12,333 nt of DNA from NCBI GenBank assembly GCA_013298265.1, contig JAAFHE010000041.1, positions 1 through 12,333 on the forward strand, in the 5' to 3' direction. A model generated the notes under the pieces. It saw nothing but the letters and a program-made list of their open reading frames with translations, ran no database searches and was not told the DNA's origin. Positions 1,247 through 11,743 of the stretch are shown piece by piece; positions within the stretch are counted from its first letter, which is position 1, and every line of letters starts with the position of its first letter. This DNA comes from Lysobacterales bacterium (GTDB lineage Bacteria; Pseudomonadota; Gammaproteobacteria; Xanthomonadales; Rhodanobacteraceae). The position numbers and the translations under genes were made by a program.

Positions 1247-3667
<2,421 letters not shown>

Positions 3668-5618: not shown

Positions 5619-5695
5619 GGCTAGGTAGCTCAGCCGGTCAGAGCGCGGCACTCATAATGCTGAGGTCGGCGGTTCGATCCCGCCTCTAGCCACCA
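5619..5695 (+). tRNA. tRNA with CAT anticodon, probably elongator tRNA-Met
   Basis: 77 nt with encoded CCA. It folds fully: acceptor GGCTAGG/TCTAGCC (one G-U), D stem GCTC/GAGC, anticodon stem CGGCA/TGCTG with loop CTCATAA, T stem GGCGG/CCGCC with TTCGATC, discriminator A. The anticodon CAT is at 5653-5655. It is not an initiator, because position 1 pairs with position 72. CAT can also belong to tRNA-Ile2 (lysidine-modified); the GGCTA acceptor start and the overall match to known elongator tRNA-Met genes favour Met. Confidence 0.95.
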
Positions 5696-6860: not shown

Positions 6861-6899
6861 GCGCCCCGTCACCCCACACCGCCTAACGAGGGCAAGCCA

Positions 6900-7301
6900 A
6901 TGATCGAGCAGTACAACAACCAGGTGCTGGCTTTCAGCAAGAGCTTTGCCGAAGCCGCGTTCAAGGTGCAGGGCCTGGCTCTGCAGAACTTCGAAAAGAT
7001 CGCCGGCCTCCAGCTGAAGACGATTGAAACCAGCGCGACCGCCACCGCGGCATTCGTGACCGAAGCTCTGGAAGTCCGTGACTTCGACGGCCTCAAGGCT
7101 ATCTGGCCGAAGGGCGTCACGCTGGCCAAGGAATCGGCCGAGAAGGCCTACGCGACCAGCCAGGAAGTTTTCGGAATCAGCGTAAAGACCAGCGAAGCGC
7201 TGGGCGAACTGGCCAAGACCAACTTCGCCGCGACCAACGAAACCATCAAGACCAATGTGGATTCGTTCAAGAAAGCCGCTACCGCTGCAGTCACCAAGTA
7301 A
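6900..7301 (+). CDS. Phasin family protein (PHA granule-associated)
   Basis: 133 residues starting MIEQYNNQVLAFSKSFAEAA. It is almost entirely amphipathic helix rich in Ala, Lys, Glu and Thr without Cys, ending in a Lys/Ala-rich tail (TNVDSFKKAATAAVTK). This is the pattern of the PhaP/phasin_2 family that coats polyhydroxyalkanoate granules and limits their size. The ATG at 6900 is chosen over an upstream in-frame start at 6837, because GAGGG lies 7 nt before it and the upstream 21 codons overlap the promoter. It is a single-gene unit with its own promoter and a strong terminator. No PHA synthase is in the window, so the presence of PHA is inferred. Some phasin-like proteins occur in non-PHA producers. 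Confidence 0.9.
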   Translation: MIEQYNNQVLAFSKSFAEAAFKVQGLALQNFEKIAGLQLKTIETSATATAAFVTEALEVRDFDGLKAIWPKGVTLAKESAEKAYATSQEVFGISVKTSEALGELAKTNFAATNETIKTNVDSFKKAATAAVTK

Positions 7302-7373: not shown

Positions 7374-7408
7374 GACCGGATGACGCAAGTCATCCGGTCT
7401 TTTTCTTT
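7374..7408 (+). terminator. Intrinsic terminator of the phasin gene
   Basis: Perfect 11-bp stem GACCGGATGAC/GTCATCCGGTC with a GCAA tetraloop, followed by TTTTTCTTT. This is a textbook Rho-independent terminator and the strongest in the window. It ends 7 bp from the stop of the convergent MAPEG gene. Confidence 0.95.
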
Positions 7409-7414
7409 GTGCGC

Positions 7415-7804
7415 TCAGGCTAGCGCGGCGACTACGAAAAGCCCGACCATGCAGGCGAGCCCCAGAACCCAGGTCAGACTCCGTAGCTGCGGGCGGTCGC
7501 TCAGGTAGAACGCGCCGTAAATCAGCCTCAGCGCGATGAACAGCACGGCTAACAGGTCGATGCGTCCCTGCGGCGCGTGCACCCACTGTGCGACCAGTAC
7601 GGCCGCCGCGAACGGCGGGAACGCTTCAATTGAATTCAGATGCGCCCAATGCGCACGTGCGCGAAAGCCCGTCAGTTCCGCCTGAAACACGCGCGGTTGA
7701 CGATTGAGCCTGCGCATGCCGGCTTCGTGACCGTATTTCGCGACGGCCGTGAACACGAGCGGCAGCAATGCCGCGATCAAGATACACCACAGGGCAATCG
7801 TCAC
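7415..7804 (-). CDS. MAPEG-family integral membrane protein
   Basis: 129 residues with four membrane helices (about 3-23, 58-76, 83-101, 108-128) and the MAPEG-type motif RAHWAHLNSIEAFPPFAAAV after the first loop (N57, E60). MAPEG proteins include glutathione S-transferase-like and eicosanoid enzymes; bacterial members of this short type are mostly uncharacterised, so no substrate is claimed. The start is GTG with GGAG 7 nt upstream. It lies 223 bp downstream of the STAS gene on the same strand, so an independent promoter is likely, though none is clear in the sequence. Confidence 0.85.
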   Translation of the reverse strand: MTIALWCILIAALLPLVFTAVAKYGHEAGMRRLNRQPRVFQAELTGFRARAHWAHLNSIEAFPPFAAAVLVAQWVHAPQGRIDLLAVLFIALRLIYGAFYLSDRPQLRSLTWVLGLACMVGLFVVAALA

Positions 7805-7930
7805 GCAGGGGCTCCTAGATGACAGTCAGACGGACAGAAAACACACGCTGGCCGATTGACCGTACCATGCGCCGGCGTGGGCACGTAGAAAAACATCGAA
7901 GTGTCCGCGCACCGGGATATGCCACTAGCA

Positions 7931-7953
7931 ATCGAGCGCGTAAGCGCGTTGAT
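7931..7953. other. Hairpin with GTAA tetraloop between the STAS and MAPEG genes
   Basis: ATCGA-GCGC-GTAA-GCGC-TTGAT with one bulged G; nine pairs in total, including one G-T. It is the only clear structure in the 223-bp gap 7805-8027, where I see no gene. It could end the STAS operon, but it lies about 75 bp past its stop and lacks a T tract. Confidence 0.3.
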
Positions 7954-8027
7954 CGACGGATGCAAGTGTGTACCTGCGCCGGACTGGCGGACTGAAAACC
8001 GTCGTCCAACGATTCGTCGAAGAACCC

Positions 8028-8639
8028 TTACTTCGGTCCGAGCAGGCGGCGCAATTTGCCGCCAAGCCCCTCGTCGGCATCCGGGTCAGCTTCCGCATCT
8101 CGTTCCGGCTCACGAGAGGGCGGCAGCGGCGTCGGTGCGCGCGGCGGGCGCGGCACCACGGGCTGACCTGGCGCTACCTTGGCGTCCAGCAGTCGCGCGG
8201 CGGCCTCGGCCAGTTCGGAAGACGCTCCGCCGGCGGGCATGATGGAACCGGCGCCGATCAATCGTGACACGGTGTGCAGCAGCCCCGGATCGATCCCGAT
8301 TGCCGGGTGCCCGGCCAAGGCGGCGGCGCGCGAGGGATAGGTTGGAATCGGCTGCGCCAGCCCCTGCTTGAATACGGCCTGTAACACGGCGGGAACGCCG
8401 GCCAGGCGAACCGACCCGGTGTTCTGAACGACGCGCGCAGCGAACACTGACAGGGACTTCAGTCCGCTGCTGGACGCATAAATCAGTCCGGCCGCATCAA
8501 CGACGAAATGGCGAGCACCCGCAGCCTCGAGTTCCTGCAGGCCGAGCTCCACATCGACTGCGCCATCCGCATCCAGGCGCCCGCCCAGTGCAACGATGTG
8601 CACCTGTCCTTCTTGTCCGCAAGCCAGCTCGACAGCCAC
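8028..8639 (-). CDS. STAS-domain protein with Pro-rich C-terminal extension
   Basis: 203 residues. The N-terminal half (about 11-108) is a STAS domain: VHIVALGGRLDADGAVDVELGLQ, then VVDAAGLIYASSSGLKSL. In anti-sigma-factor antagonists this second motif is D-x-S-G-L and its Ser is phosphorylated; here it is S56-S57-S58-G59-L60, so the phospho-site position is kept while the preceding Asp is Ser. The rest is helix, then a Pro-rich linker (156-176), an acidic stretch (180-190) and a basic end GGKLRRLLGPK. GTG start with AGAGGG 8 nt upstream, inside the end of the FHA gene, whose stop lies 4 bp away, so translation is probably coupled. No anti-sigma kinase or PP2C phosphatase is in the window, and the partner is unknown. 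Confidence 0.85.
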   Translation of the reverse strand: MAVELACGQEGQVHIVALGGRLDADGAVDVELGLQELEAAGARHFVVDAAGLIYASSSGLKSLSVFAARVVQNTGSVRLAGVPAVLQAVFKQGLAQPIPTYPSRAAALAGHPAIGIDPGLLHTVSRLIGAGSIMPAGGASSELAEAAARLLDAKVAPGQPVVPRPPRAPTPLPPSREPERDAEADPDADEGLGGKLRRLLGPK

Positions 8640-8643
8640 AACC

Positions 8644-9708
8644 TCAGCCCTCTCGGAAGACCCAGCGCGCTGCGCCGATCTGGATCACGTCCTGGTCGCG
8701 CAACAGCCGCTCACGGATCCTTTCTGCATTCACCCGCGTGCCATGCGGAGACCCCATGTCAACGACGGTGTAGCCGGCCATGCTGACGGTGAGCTGCGCA
8801 TGTTTCGGGTCGACGCCCGGACCGCCGACGCGCACGTCGCTGCCGGAGTCAGCACCGATGCTGATAGTGTTGAGGCTCAACACGATGCTGTTCTTGCCGG
8901 CTTCCGGATTTTGCGGGACCAGACGCGCGGCACGCACGACGACCGTGGCGCCGGACGCAGCGGCGGGCGCGGCGCCGTTGCGCGCCGGCAGTGGAATATC
9001 CAGCACGGGCATCATCTGCGTCTCGCTAGGCGGCCGTACGGGTTTCGCCGCAGCAACGGTTGCGGCGGGAGCAGCTACCTGTAGCGGTGGCGGAATAGCC
9101 GCGAACACCTGCGTCCGATCACTGGCCAAATCGGTTTCCATCGTACGGAAGCCGCCGGGAACCGTCGGAGCACTTGGGCCTGGGCCAGCCGCTGCCGGCG
9201 CAGGTGTCGCTGGGGCGCTCGCGACCGGTGGCGACGCGGCGAGATGCAGTTCCGCCTCGGAATGGAACGCGTCAAGGAATCTGGCCTTCAGTTCCTGCGC
9301 GCGTTTGAGAGCCTCCGCACGGGCGGCGAGCTCGGTCTCAAGCTCGGCGATTCGACGCTTGAACTCACCCTCATCGAACTCGCCCAGCTGATGGCGCAGG
9401 TCGATCTCCTGCCGGTCCAGCGTGATGGACTCATGATCGCCGGTATAGCGCTCGAGCAGTCCGCTGAGCTCGATGAACTGCGCGCGCGCCTCTTGCTTCA
9501 GCGGAGCGGCTTTCTGCTCTATCTCGCGATTGCGGCTCTCATAGTCGCCGCGCACGCGAAGGTAGACCGCCTCGGCGACCGCGCTGCGCTTTTCCTCCAG
9601 CTGTTGCAGCCGCTCGCTTAGCACGTCCTGCTCGGACTTGAGCGTCTTGAGCGATTCGACGGCGCTGACGTCGATGGCTTGCAGTGCGGCGATGCGATCA
9701 TTGCTCAT
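8644..9708 (-). CDS. Coiled-coil protein with C-terminal degenerate FHA domain
   Basis: 354 residues from the ATG at 9708. GGAG lies 6 nt before it; a TTG eight codons upstream is less likely. Residues 12-150 are strongly charged, heptad-like helix (coiled coil). Residues 157-255 are an Ala/Pro linker with two Thr-Gln sites, DRTQVF (T199) and SETQMM (T230). Residues 273-351 form an FHA domain by strand pattern, but the phosphopeptide-binding residues are altered: Gly-Arg is G285-A286, the Ser of SxxH is D300 (H303 kept), and the Asn of NG is H322 (HGT). Phosphothreonine binding is therefore doubtful. It is the middle gene of the cNBD-FHA/FHA/STAS operon, 20 bp after the first gene and 4 bp before the third. 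A scaffold role is inferred. Confidence 0.85.
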   Translation of the reverse strand: MSNDRIAALQAIDVSAVESLKTLKSEQDVLSERLQQLEEKRSAVAEAVYLRVRGDYESRNREIEQKAAPLKQEARAQFIELSGLLERYTGDHESITLDRQEIDLRHQLGEFDEGEFKRRIAELETELAARAEALKRAQELKARFLDAFHSEAELHLAASPPVASAPATPAPAAAGPGPSAPTVPGGFRTMETDLASDRTQVFAAIPPPLQVAAPAATVAAAKPVRPPSETQMMPVLDIPLPARNGAAPAAASGATVVVRAARLVPQNPEAGKNSIVLSLNTISIGADSGSDVRVGGPGVDPKHAQLTVSMAGYTVVDMGSPHGTRVNAERIRERLLRDQDVIQIGAARWVFREG

Positions 9709-9728
9709 GGTGCTCTCCGTGCCGCGCG

Positions 9729-10634
9729 TCAAGGCGCGACCAATTCTATGTCGATAGTGCCGAAACGTAGCTGGTCGCCCGGCTTGACGGGCGCAGCGGT
9801 ACCTGTGGCCAGTCGCTGGCCATTGATGAAGGTGCCGTTGGCCGTACCGACTTCCTCTCGCAGAAACAGCAGCGCGCCCTGACGCAGCAGCTTGGCATGG
9901 CGGCGGCTGAGAGTGCGCGCGGTATCGAGCGGGCCCAAGTTGATTTCCGGCGTGGTGCCCGTGACCGGATCGATGCGGCCGACCAGAAACTCGCTGCGTC
10001 CGGATTCCAACGCGAAACGTTGTCCGCTGGCCGCATGCACCAGCGCCAGAGTGCCAGTTGCATGTGCCGACGCCGCCTCGGCTGCAACCGCACGCGGAGG
10101 CGCTACGGCCGGCACAGGTGCAATCGGCGGGACCGGCGACGGAGCCGCAGCCGGTGAAGGCACCGCCCTCGGCGGCAGCTCGGCCACCTTAGCGGGCACG
10201 ACAGGCGCAGCCGCGGGAGCGCCTGTCGCCGCCGCCGAAGCGACCGGCGCTGCACGAAGACGCTGCAACTCCTGCTGCAACTCGCTTATGCGTTGCTCTG
10301 CGCGACGCTGACGCAGGGCCAGCTTGCGCATGATGCGCACAGCAATTTCCACATTTTGACGCAACAACTCAGCGAACGCGGCGCGTTCGATGCGCAAAAG
10401 GCGGCAGTTGGTCTGGGCCAACGCCGACGCAAAACGTGGCTGATCTTCGAGCACGGCCATCTCGCCGAGAAAGTCGCCGGGCTCCAGCACGGCCAGCGGC
10501 TCGCTACCGCGCGCGGTGCGCAGGATGGCGATGCTGCCGGATTCAACGATGTACATCTCCGCACCGGCATCGCCCTCGCGAAACAGATACTGCCCTGCGG
10601 GAACATCGGTGTAGAGGTCGTTTGCCTTGGCCAT
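9729..10634 (-). CDS. Cyclic-nucleotide-binding domain fused to a canonical FHA domain
   Basis: 301 residues, predicted cytoplasmic. The N-terminal cNMP-binding domain (about 8-105) shows YLFREGD, YIVESGSI and the phosphate-binding cassette GDFLGEMAVLEDQPRFASA, with E58 and R67 in the ligand-contacting places. A helix (107-127) leads to an Ala/Pro linker (129-190), then an FHA domain (200-299) with all core residues: G219-R220, S243-x-x-H246 and N266-G267-T, plus N271-G272. This should bind a phosphothreonine partner. The nucleotide is not known; cAMP and c-di-GMP binding are both known for Crp-type domains in this lineage. There is no DNA-binding domain. The ATG follows AGGAAAGG. It is the first gene of the three-gene operon and is divergent from the esterase gene. 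Confidence 0.92.
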   Translation of the reverse strand: MAKANDLYTDVPAGQYLFREGDAGAEMYIVESGSIAILRTARGSEPLAVLEPGDFLGEMAVLEDQPRFASALAQTNCRLLRIERAAFAELLRQNVEIAVRIMRKLALRQRRAEQRISELQQELQRLRAAPVASAAATGAPAAAPVVPAKVAELPPRAVPSPAAAPSPVPPIAPVPAVAPPRAVAAEAASAHATGTLALVHAASGQRFALESGRSEFLVGRIDPVTGTTPEINLGPLDTARTLSRRHAKLLRQGALLFLREEVGTANGTFINGQRLATGTAAPVKPGDQLRFGTIDIELVAP

Positions 10635-10669
10635 GCTGCCTTTCCTGCCTGTCGCGGCGGTATCGGCCG

Positions 10670-10699
10670 ATTATGCCGAGCGCTTCAATTGAGCGGCAA
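10670..10699 (-). promoter_or_regulatory. Promoter of the cNBD-FHA/FHA/STAS operon
   Basis: Minus strand TTGCCG (10694-10699), an 18-bp spacer and CATAAT (10670-10675), 36 bp before the start codon. The palindrome TCAATTGA lies in the spacer. Confidence 0.5.
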
Positions 10700-10709
10700 C
10701 CGCGCCGCG

Positions 10710-10722
10710 ACGTTCGTAACGT
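10710..10722. promoter_or_regulatory. Palindrome ACGTT-CGT-AACGT in the divergent promoter region
   Basis: Perfect 5-3-5 inverted repeat in the 185-bp gap between the divergent operon and the esterase gene, just upstream of the operon -35. It is a candidate operator. I see no convincing promoter hexamers for the esterase. Confidence 0.35.
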
Positions 10723-10819
10723 GTTGTGCCCGCGATCACGCCACGAACGCGCACTGTGCCGCGTTCCCGCACACTGCCGCACGCGGATACTGCACGCAAC
10801 GACGGTGAGAACGGCGGCA

Positions 10820-11743
10820 ATGAAGCTTCCCGGCAAACTCCTGCTGCTCACGCTGGTCGGCTGCAACGCGGCGGGCGCAGCCACGACCGTGCGCCTGCCG
10901 CCCTGGGCCTGCGACGGCAACAACGACCGCATCTTCCGAAACGGACTGCAGGTCGGAGATTTCGTCCGACCCAGTCCCAGCCATGGCAGCGGCGGCGCTA
11001 TACCCGGGCGACAGTTGCGCACGCTGTCGATCGCCGGACTCGGTAACGGCACACAGAAGCTTCATATCTATGTCCCGCCGAACTACAACCCGGCCTATGC
11101 AACGCCGCTAGTCATCACCCTGCACGGCACCGCCGGCAGCCCCGCCAATGCCGACCTCTACGCCCAGGACGTGCGCAACGCGTGGCAAAGTGTCGCAGCC
11201 ACGCGCGGCTTCATCGTCGCCGCGCCGGTCGCGAACGGCGCTTCGGGCTCCTGGAAGGATGGCCTGTCCGCGCCTCCGAACGACTACACCTTTCTCGCCG
11301 CCGCCATGGCCGACCTGCGTGCGGCGTACAACATCGACGACAGCCGCACTCAGCTCTGGGGATTTTCGGCCGGCGGCCATGTTGCTCATGATCTGCTCGT
11401 CAACGGCCCCGTTCCGGCGCTGGACGAGAACCATGTCGCCGCTTACGCGGTCAGCGCCGGGCGCTTGTTCGCCCTGGCTTGCCTGGGCGACAGCGAGGAA
11501 CAGTGCCAGGCACGCCTGGACACGCAGGTGCGCAAGCTACCGTTCGACCTGCACCTGGGCACAGCCGATCCGATGGCCGGTCCGCCCTACAACGCCGCGC
11601 AGGATCCGGCGCGCTTCGAAACCGCCGGCTGGGTCATGGACGACACGCTGAATTACTACGTCTTCGGCGGCGGCCACACCTACGAAGCCGGCCACTTCGT
11701 CGACATCTGGAACTTCTTCTGCCGCTTCGCCGTGACTCCCTGA
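10820..11743 (+). CDS. Exported PHB-depolymerase-like esterase (alpha/beta hydrolase)
   Basis: 307 residues from the ATG at 10820. The frame is open much further upstream, but that part lies over the divergent gene and lacks a signal sequence. The N-terminus has two Lys, a Leu-rich core and LVGC, a fair lipobox (C15); cleavage later at AGA-A is the alternative. The mature part is an alpha/beta hydrolase: oxyanion-side HGTAGSP (102-108), nucleophile S183 in GFSAG, acid D250 in GTADP, and His from GGHTYEAGH (H286 or H292). Four Cys (31, 221, 229, 301) could form disulfides, fitting export. This places it near PHB-depolymerase/feruloyl-esterase type secreted esterases; the true substrate is unknown. 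The ribosome site is weak (GGTGAG, 10 nt away). Confidence 0.82.
   Translation: MKLPGKLLLLTLVGCNAAGAATTVRLPPWACDGNNDRIFRNGLQVGDFVRPSPSHGSGGAIPGRQLRTLSIAGLGNGTQKLHIYVPPNYNPAYATPLVITLHGTAGSPANADLYAQDVRNAWQSVAATRGFIVAAPVANGASGSWKDGLSAPPNDYTFLAAAMADLRAAYNIDDSRTQLWGFSAGGHVAHDLLVNGPVPALDENHVAAYAVSAGRLFALACLGDSEEQCQARLDTQVRKLPFDLHLGTADPMAGPPYNAAQDPARFETAGWVMDDTLNYYVFGGGHTYEAGHFVDIWNFFCRFAVTP

Follow-up and report, generated by a model that had tools for sequence, protein, structure and literature searches.

A conserved cNBD-FHA, pseudo-FHA and STAS gene set in Lysobacterales as a possible branch of an RsbU/RsbV-type partner switch

Among described systems, the RsbU/RsbV-type partner switches, which pair a SpoIIE-type phosphatase with a STAS protein (SpoIIE/RsbU with SpoIIAA/RsbV), come closest to the three-gene set considered here (genes A, B and C), and the phosphosite of SpoIIAA is Ser58. 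Another point of comparison is GarA/OdhI, which we take to be defined as a short FHA protein with an N-terminal phosphosite and a working phosphothreonine pocket. In Gram-negatives, a partner switch with PP2C and a GHKL kinase is represented by HsbR-HsbA of Pseudomonas aeruginosa, in which a single REC-PP2C-kinase fusion does the switching of HsbA (PMC6482189). FHA and cyclic-nucleotide-binding (cNBD) domains serve as input modules of second-messenger enzymes in the Bdellovibrio proteins DgcB (FHA-GGDEF; PMC6733907) and Bd1971 (cNBD with EAL), respectively, both of which turned up as PDB matches.

The likeness of our set to SpoIIAA/RsbV and SpoIIE/RsbU lies in the STAS fold and phosphoserine position of protein C (SpoIIAB-SpoIIAA structures 1th8 and 1tid) and in a SpoIIE-type phosphatase gene, here called D, that stands beside C in the loci of 14 relatives. 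The differences are that D carries an FHA domain, that two further FHA proteins belong to the set, that the window is without D, and that neither an RsbW kinase nor a sigma factor is assigned to A-B-C. DgcB and Bd1971 are single enzymes, unlike the A-B-C set, and we know of no STAS or SpoIIE partner for them. The proposed set resembles HsbR-HsbA as a Gram-negative switch of this kind and differs from it in that no FHA or cNBD partner is described in the part of that source available (PMC6482189). No description of the A-B-C set was found in the open-licence literature searched.

The window, by which we mean the whole stretch of 12,333 nucleotides analysed (contig JAAFHE010000041.1 of assembly GCA_013298265.1), carries the three genes on the minus strand. 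Gene A (9729..10634) encodes 301 aa with a cNBD, a Pro/Ala-rich linker and a canonical FHA domain, gene B (8644..9708) encodes 354 aa with a helical domain, a disordered linker and a pseudo-FHA domain, and gene C (8028..8639) encodes 203 aa with a STAS domain and a tail. The mechanical open reading frame of B starts at a TTG at 9732; with the ATG at 9708 taken as the start, the gaps are 20 bp (A-B) and 4 bp (B-C), and both coordinates and spacing are those given in an earlier, sequence-only reading of this DNA. Pfam likewise bears out the domains named there (cNBD and FHA in A, FHA in B, STAS in C), and the NCBIfam matches of all three proteins fall below the curated cut-offs. As to the single promoter proposed for the operon, a scan of 7400-11000 returned one sigma-70-like match, upstream of A (10699-10670, minus strand); this match is weak (9/12; shuffles gave a mean of 0.4) and does not establish a promoter.

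On the C side, a gap at 7805..8027, which in the 14 relatives' loci is the slot of D and is without it here, separates C from a MAPEG-family gene (7415..7804, minus strand, Pfam), beyond which lies a phasin gene (6894..7301, plus strand). On the A side there is a divergent PHB-depolymerase-like esterase gene (10820..11743, plus strand; NCBIfam matches below cut-off, signal peptide seen by eye). A hybrid histidine kinase is encoded at 1247-3667, and a tRNA-Met (CAT) occupies 5619-5695, between NUDIX (RppH-like) and QueD-like genes. A second A-like match at 10709-11497 on the minus strand, with similar ones in relatives, was rejected, as it runs antisense to the esterase and comes from a query frame overextended upstream.

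Both Pfam domains of A score over cut-off (PF00027, 88.5 bits; PF00498, 37.5 bits). Its FHA domain (about residues 215-298; 9741..9992, minus strand) contains Arg220, Ser243, His246 and Asn266, and these pocket residues (GR, SxxH and NG) are kept in 24/24 sequences, a 25th row, from locus L066, having been left out because it holds masked letters. The intact pocket supports the idea, already put forward for the FHA domains of this operon, that A is built to read phosphothreonine. The cNBD (residues 11-94; 10353..10604, minus strand) has the phosphate-binding cassette residues Glu58 and Arg67, and in the same 24 sequences the Glu is invariant, while the Arg is found in 17 (the remainder being 5 His, 1 Ser and 1 gap). 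Control by a nucleotide, also proposed earlier, is therefore plausible for the window's A, judging from its cassette Glu and Arg, but it is not a fixed property of the A family, because the Arg is missing in 7/24. All three FHA patterns are found in 118 of the 120 database rows listed for A (the window's own among them), and the cassette pattern in 119, one of which has Asp for Glu. The cassette Arg is replaced by His in L059, L060, L062, L069 and L070, so nucleotide sensing may be lost in these loci.

Protein B scores above A against the Pfam FHA family (PF00498, 48.4 bits), and it also matches the FHA-like family Yop-YscD_cpl (42.7 bits), both over cut-off, yet its pocket is replaced. Across 47 sequences including the window's, the Arg of GR is replaced in all 47, the Ser of SxxH in 45 and the Asn of NG in 46 (one of these being a gap), and in the window's pseudo-FHA (residues 261-353; 8650..8928, minus strand) Ala286, Asp300 and His322 stand in place of the Arg, Ser and Asn of phosphothreonine-binding FHA domains. 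The sequence-only reading was thus right to call this domain degenerate. The AlphaFold2 model has a helical domain of high confidence up to about residue 155 (residues 1-155; 9244..9708, minus strand), which is the diagnostic part of the B family, then a disordered linker (residues 156-256; 8941..9243, minus strand) mostly with pLDDT <50, and an FHA fold; a coiled-coil-type Pfam match reaches 15.1 bits, below cut-off. With its helical domain, disordered linker and pseudo-FHA, B looks like a scaffold, in line with the scaffolded complex first suggested.

Among solved structures, the FHA fold of B is closest to those of GarA/OdhI (6i2p, 8p5x, 2kb3; 30-34% identity), and B also shares with them threonines N-terminal to the FHA domain. 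However, GarA has GR, SRRH and NGT, all replaced in B, and B reaches only 42.5 bits against the NCBIfam OdhI model, whose cut-off is 200, so that B falls outside GarA/OdhI as defined above. Seven columns of the B linker are at least 97% identical across 38 close homologues, and three of the seven are Thr (binomial 0.02, on rows that are not independent), namely Thr230 (9019-9021) and Thr255 (8944-8946), present in 38/38, and Thr189 (9142-9144, all minus strand), present in 37/38. From this conservation we infer that the three threonines are candidate FHA ligands.

Protein C matches PF13466 (32.8 bits) and PF01740 (24.9 bits), both over cut-off. Since its profile (66.3 bits against SpoIIAA) and its predicted model (TMt 0.83 against 1th8) both agree with SpoIIAA, Ser57 of C (8469..8471, minus strand; position counted from the alignment) is placed on SpoIIAA Ser58. 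At this position 33 sequences have 26 Ser, 6 Asn and 1 Ala, with Asn in P0245 and in 5/6 T. soli-type proteins and Ala in L042. Taken by its sequence, C can be classed as a SpoIIAA-like STAS protein that keeps the phosphoserine position; a conserved serine is also named in PMC8256260. The tail of C (residues 108-203; 8031..8318, minus strand) has low model confidence, and its basic C-terminal stretch is conserved in the subgroup of 203-aa-type proteins. The tails end in short basic, hydrophobic stretches (window 8031-8070), such as KLRRLLGPK, or WFKGQ in some f12 genomes, which are possibly membrane- or partner-binding.

To compare the neighbourhoods we used 31 non-duplicate loci, all found with B as the tracer. 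A, B and C follow one another in the same order and on the same strand in 25 of them, which goes beyond coincidence; the other six are cut by contig ends (L052, L064 and L065), lack C (L050) or have B alone (L049 and L071). The earlier reading had made its proposal depend on the trio being a conserved neighbourhood, and because it proved to be one in relatives, the trio stands as a conserved unit. Named carriers include Tahibacter harae, T. aquaticus, T. soli, a Rudaea sp. MAG and Rhodanobacteraceae MAGs. At its fullest the neighbourhood reads esterase< A> B> C> D< MAPEG> phasin< (chalcone-like<) QueD< RppH-like>, and many loci lack some of these genes (QueD-type and NUDIX calls come from Pfam, the names QueD and RppH being given by eye). 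As the flanking gene order is conserved as well, the three proteins could share an operon and still serve separate pathways, their synteny reflecting slow rearrangement of the whole region, as for MAPEG, phasin and QueD; we consider this improbable, given that A, B and C remain together, -4 to 53 bases apart, in loci with altered flanks (L043, L044 and L045). Because phasin and the PHB-depolymerase-like esterase flank the set, it could also be supposed to regulate polyhydroxyalkanoate granules. One or both of these genes were detected in 21/31 loci, but the esterase looks secreted (by eye), and in L040, L042, L043 and L045, where the trio is retained, a search of 17-20 kb with a 50-bit limit detected neither gene, which makes a role in granules very improbable.

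Sampling of genomes gave a narrow distribution. In the order, a B that includes the N-terminal helical domain occurs in 16/151 genomes. The full trio is seen in 13 of these; in G038 the contig stops before A is reached, in G091 A and B are present and C is missing, and in G031 only B is found. In the phylum sample, 4/398 genomes match the N-terminal domain of B, three of them from the window's own family and the fourth marginally (20.7 bits, positions 13-68), and among the matches listed for a class sample of 369 genomes, with up to five candidates scored per genome, only the window's own genome (G000) and G012 reach the N-terminal half. At this sampling the B family looks nearly confined to one order. 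A B homologue with 53% identity, P0217, is labelled Deltaproteobacteria (MAG) and counts against such confinement; its label may reflect transfer or a binning or naming error. In a Dokdonella MAG (L071, 9791-13765), the B match lies inside a very long open frame, called as 1324 aa by a simple caller.

The gene that links the set to partner switching is D, which encodes an FHA(-GAF)-SpoIIE/PP2C protein and lies convergent, between C and the MAPEG-phasin-QueD flank, in 14 loci; it is about 3 kb from C in L062 and close in the other D-bearing loci. A domain scan of six of these 14 D proteins found FHA and SpoIIE in every one and GAF in four, and the other eight calls rest on tblastn. The sequence-only reading had noted no kinase, phosphatase or anti-sigma factor beside the trio, which holds for the window (as to Ser/Thr kinases, PP2C and RsbW-like proteins in the scanned ORFs) and fails for these 14 relatives' loci. 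The window and L039, L054, L055, L057 and L068 (Tahibacter and kin) have the same order as the D-bearing relatives, with the same MAPEG-phasin-QueD flank, minus D. In a tree of 26 B proteins these six rows form one branch with 100/100 support, and across the whole tree the presence of D needs four changes. No FHA-SpoIIE protein was found in the six genomes of this clade (G000, G012 and those of L054, L055, L057 and L068), where SpoIIE-side matches to the D query start at residue 105 or later and FHA matches fall in other proteins, and the same query found full-length matches in two D-bearing control genomes. G012 is 100% complete, and since the window's own genome is 87.6% complete, absence of D there alone is not firm. 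The simplest reading is a deletion of D in the ancestor of the window clade, the direction being inferred.

Eleven loci have C without adjoining D, among which L040 and L042 belong neither to the window clade nor to the three genomes (G021, G011 and G003) in which trio and D are apart and D adjoins MAPEG (L142, L143 and L149). The genome of L042 (G005) has a nearly full-length FHA-SpoIIE match elsewhere, and that of L040 (G055) has none among the matches listed. L050, where C is missing beside A and B, has no D at that place either, L061 ends directly after C, and FHA-SpoIIE proteins occur in genomes without the trio as well (e.g. G025 and G110). In 25 C sequences, Ser57 is present in 14/14 with D adjoining and in 9/11 without, a difference too small to argue from. 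Three other candidates were set aside: an extra FHA gene beyond D, which falls on the MAPEG gene; apparent D matches in L049 and L044, which are short FHA cross-hits; and a protein of the window's genome (G000:C569), which matches only the GAF-SpoIIE part of D.

Elsewhere in the window's genome, and all off the window's contig, there are 25 Hanks-kinase matches, a GAF-SpoIIE protein truncated at a contig end (its GAF assigned by similarity) and a REC-SpoIIE-HATPase protein with the layout of the fused REC-PP2C-kinase protein that switches HsbA (PMC6482189). The contig likewise lacks a cyclase-FHA fusion of the same genome, a 303-aa frame (L006; G000:C611:1371-1847 and 2007-2168) with a class III nucleotide cyclase and a C-terminal FHA, which could supply the nucleotide for A. 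A stand-alone RsbW query matched nothing in G000 and, in G012, a SpoIIE-HATPase fusion only, and among the matches listed for 16 genomes there was no RsbW-like kinase near the trio. The strongest HATPase_c_2 match listed for G000 is fused to REC-SpoIIE, the others lying in histidine-kinase-like frames or in a 95-aa fragment at a contig end (G000:C601), which looks by eye like a histidine kinase end and was rejected as RsbW. Stand-alone RsbW proteins as the partner kinase were also rejected, as the six close matches found, at 61-100% identity, come without exception from f12 genomes that have at least B and C and are confounded with phylogeny.

Failure to find D in the six clade genomes and the outcome of the RsbW query would also fit a dismantled switch, in which an ancestral, D-bearing system has left the window clade with A-B-C as a phosphoserine-independent scaffold and C as a binding module only. 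The T. soli-type C proteins, with Asn57 in 5/6 and without the GKLRRLLGPK tail end, point the same way. Against this, Ser57 is kept in 14/15 rows of the 203-aa-type C subgroup, window included (the exception is P0245), and PP2C-kinase fusions are present in the genome; we regard such a dismantling as rather unlikely.

We favor, tentatively and at slightly less than even chances, the explanation that A-B-C is a branch, scaffolded and organised by FHA proteins, of an RsbU/RsbV-type partner switch, and that the window clade has lost the phosphatase belonging to it. This follows from D standing beside the STAS gene in 14 loci and from the phosphoserine position kept in C, and for the same reasons the idea that the set is unconnected to any named system is not supported. 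The kept FHA pocket of A, the lost pocket Arg of B, the conserved linker threonines, the Hanks-kinase matches and the cyclase-FHA fusion of the window's genome also speak for this explanation. In such a branch, a Hanks-type kinase would phosphorylate the B linker threonines, on which the FHA domain of A, and that of D where present, would dock, so that B would bring A, C and D together; binding of a nucleotide by A would alter the assembly, and C would be the output, free or bound according to the phosphorylation state of Ser57. In the window's lineage, C would have to be served by another phosphatase or kinase, such as the REC-SpoIIE-HATPase or GAF-SpoIIE proteins, or work without that cycle. 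With D gone and no kinase assigned, the window's own copy qualifies only in part as a member. Also counted against the partner-switch explanation are the substitution of Ser57 in 7/33, the missing cassette Arg in 7/24, the lack of an RsbW-like kinase in the window's genome with a stand-alone RsbW query, the FHA-SpoIIE proteins of trio-less genomes, the D-less L040 and L042 outside the window clade, and the non-independent rows behind the linker-Thr statistic.

A bolder version, which we hold doubtful, is that one scaffold joins three chemistries, namely phosphothreonine (placed on the B linker by a kinase and recognised by the FHA of A and that of D), cyclic nucleotide (A) and phosphoserine switching (D on C), and that Tahibacter and relatives deleted the phosphatase and kept the trio. 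If true, the Tahibacter clade would be a natural experiment in rewiring and, with only the phosphatase gene missing from the neighbourhood, a clean comparison. In Gram-negatives rich in Hanks kinases, the set would connect signalling by these enzymes with phosphoserine switching, through a conserved pseudo-FHA, an FHA joined to a nucleotide-binding domain, and a STAS protein with its putative phosphatase.

In G021, two kinase genes, one RsbW-like with a start rich in Trp and Arg and one of Hanks type, follow just after D and MAPEG, at a distance of about 1.6 to 3.6 kb from D (L142, 9902-10432 and 10544-11950). In G012, a GAF-SpoIIE-HATPase_c_2 fusion (L084, 731-2748) is followed by what appears to be its own STAS gene (YIDSSG, by eye), and this pair, which adjoins a phosphatidylserine-synthase-like gene, is probably a second, separate partner switch.
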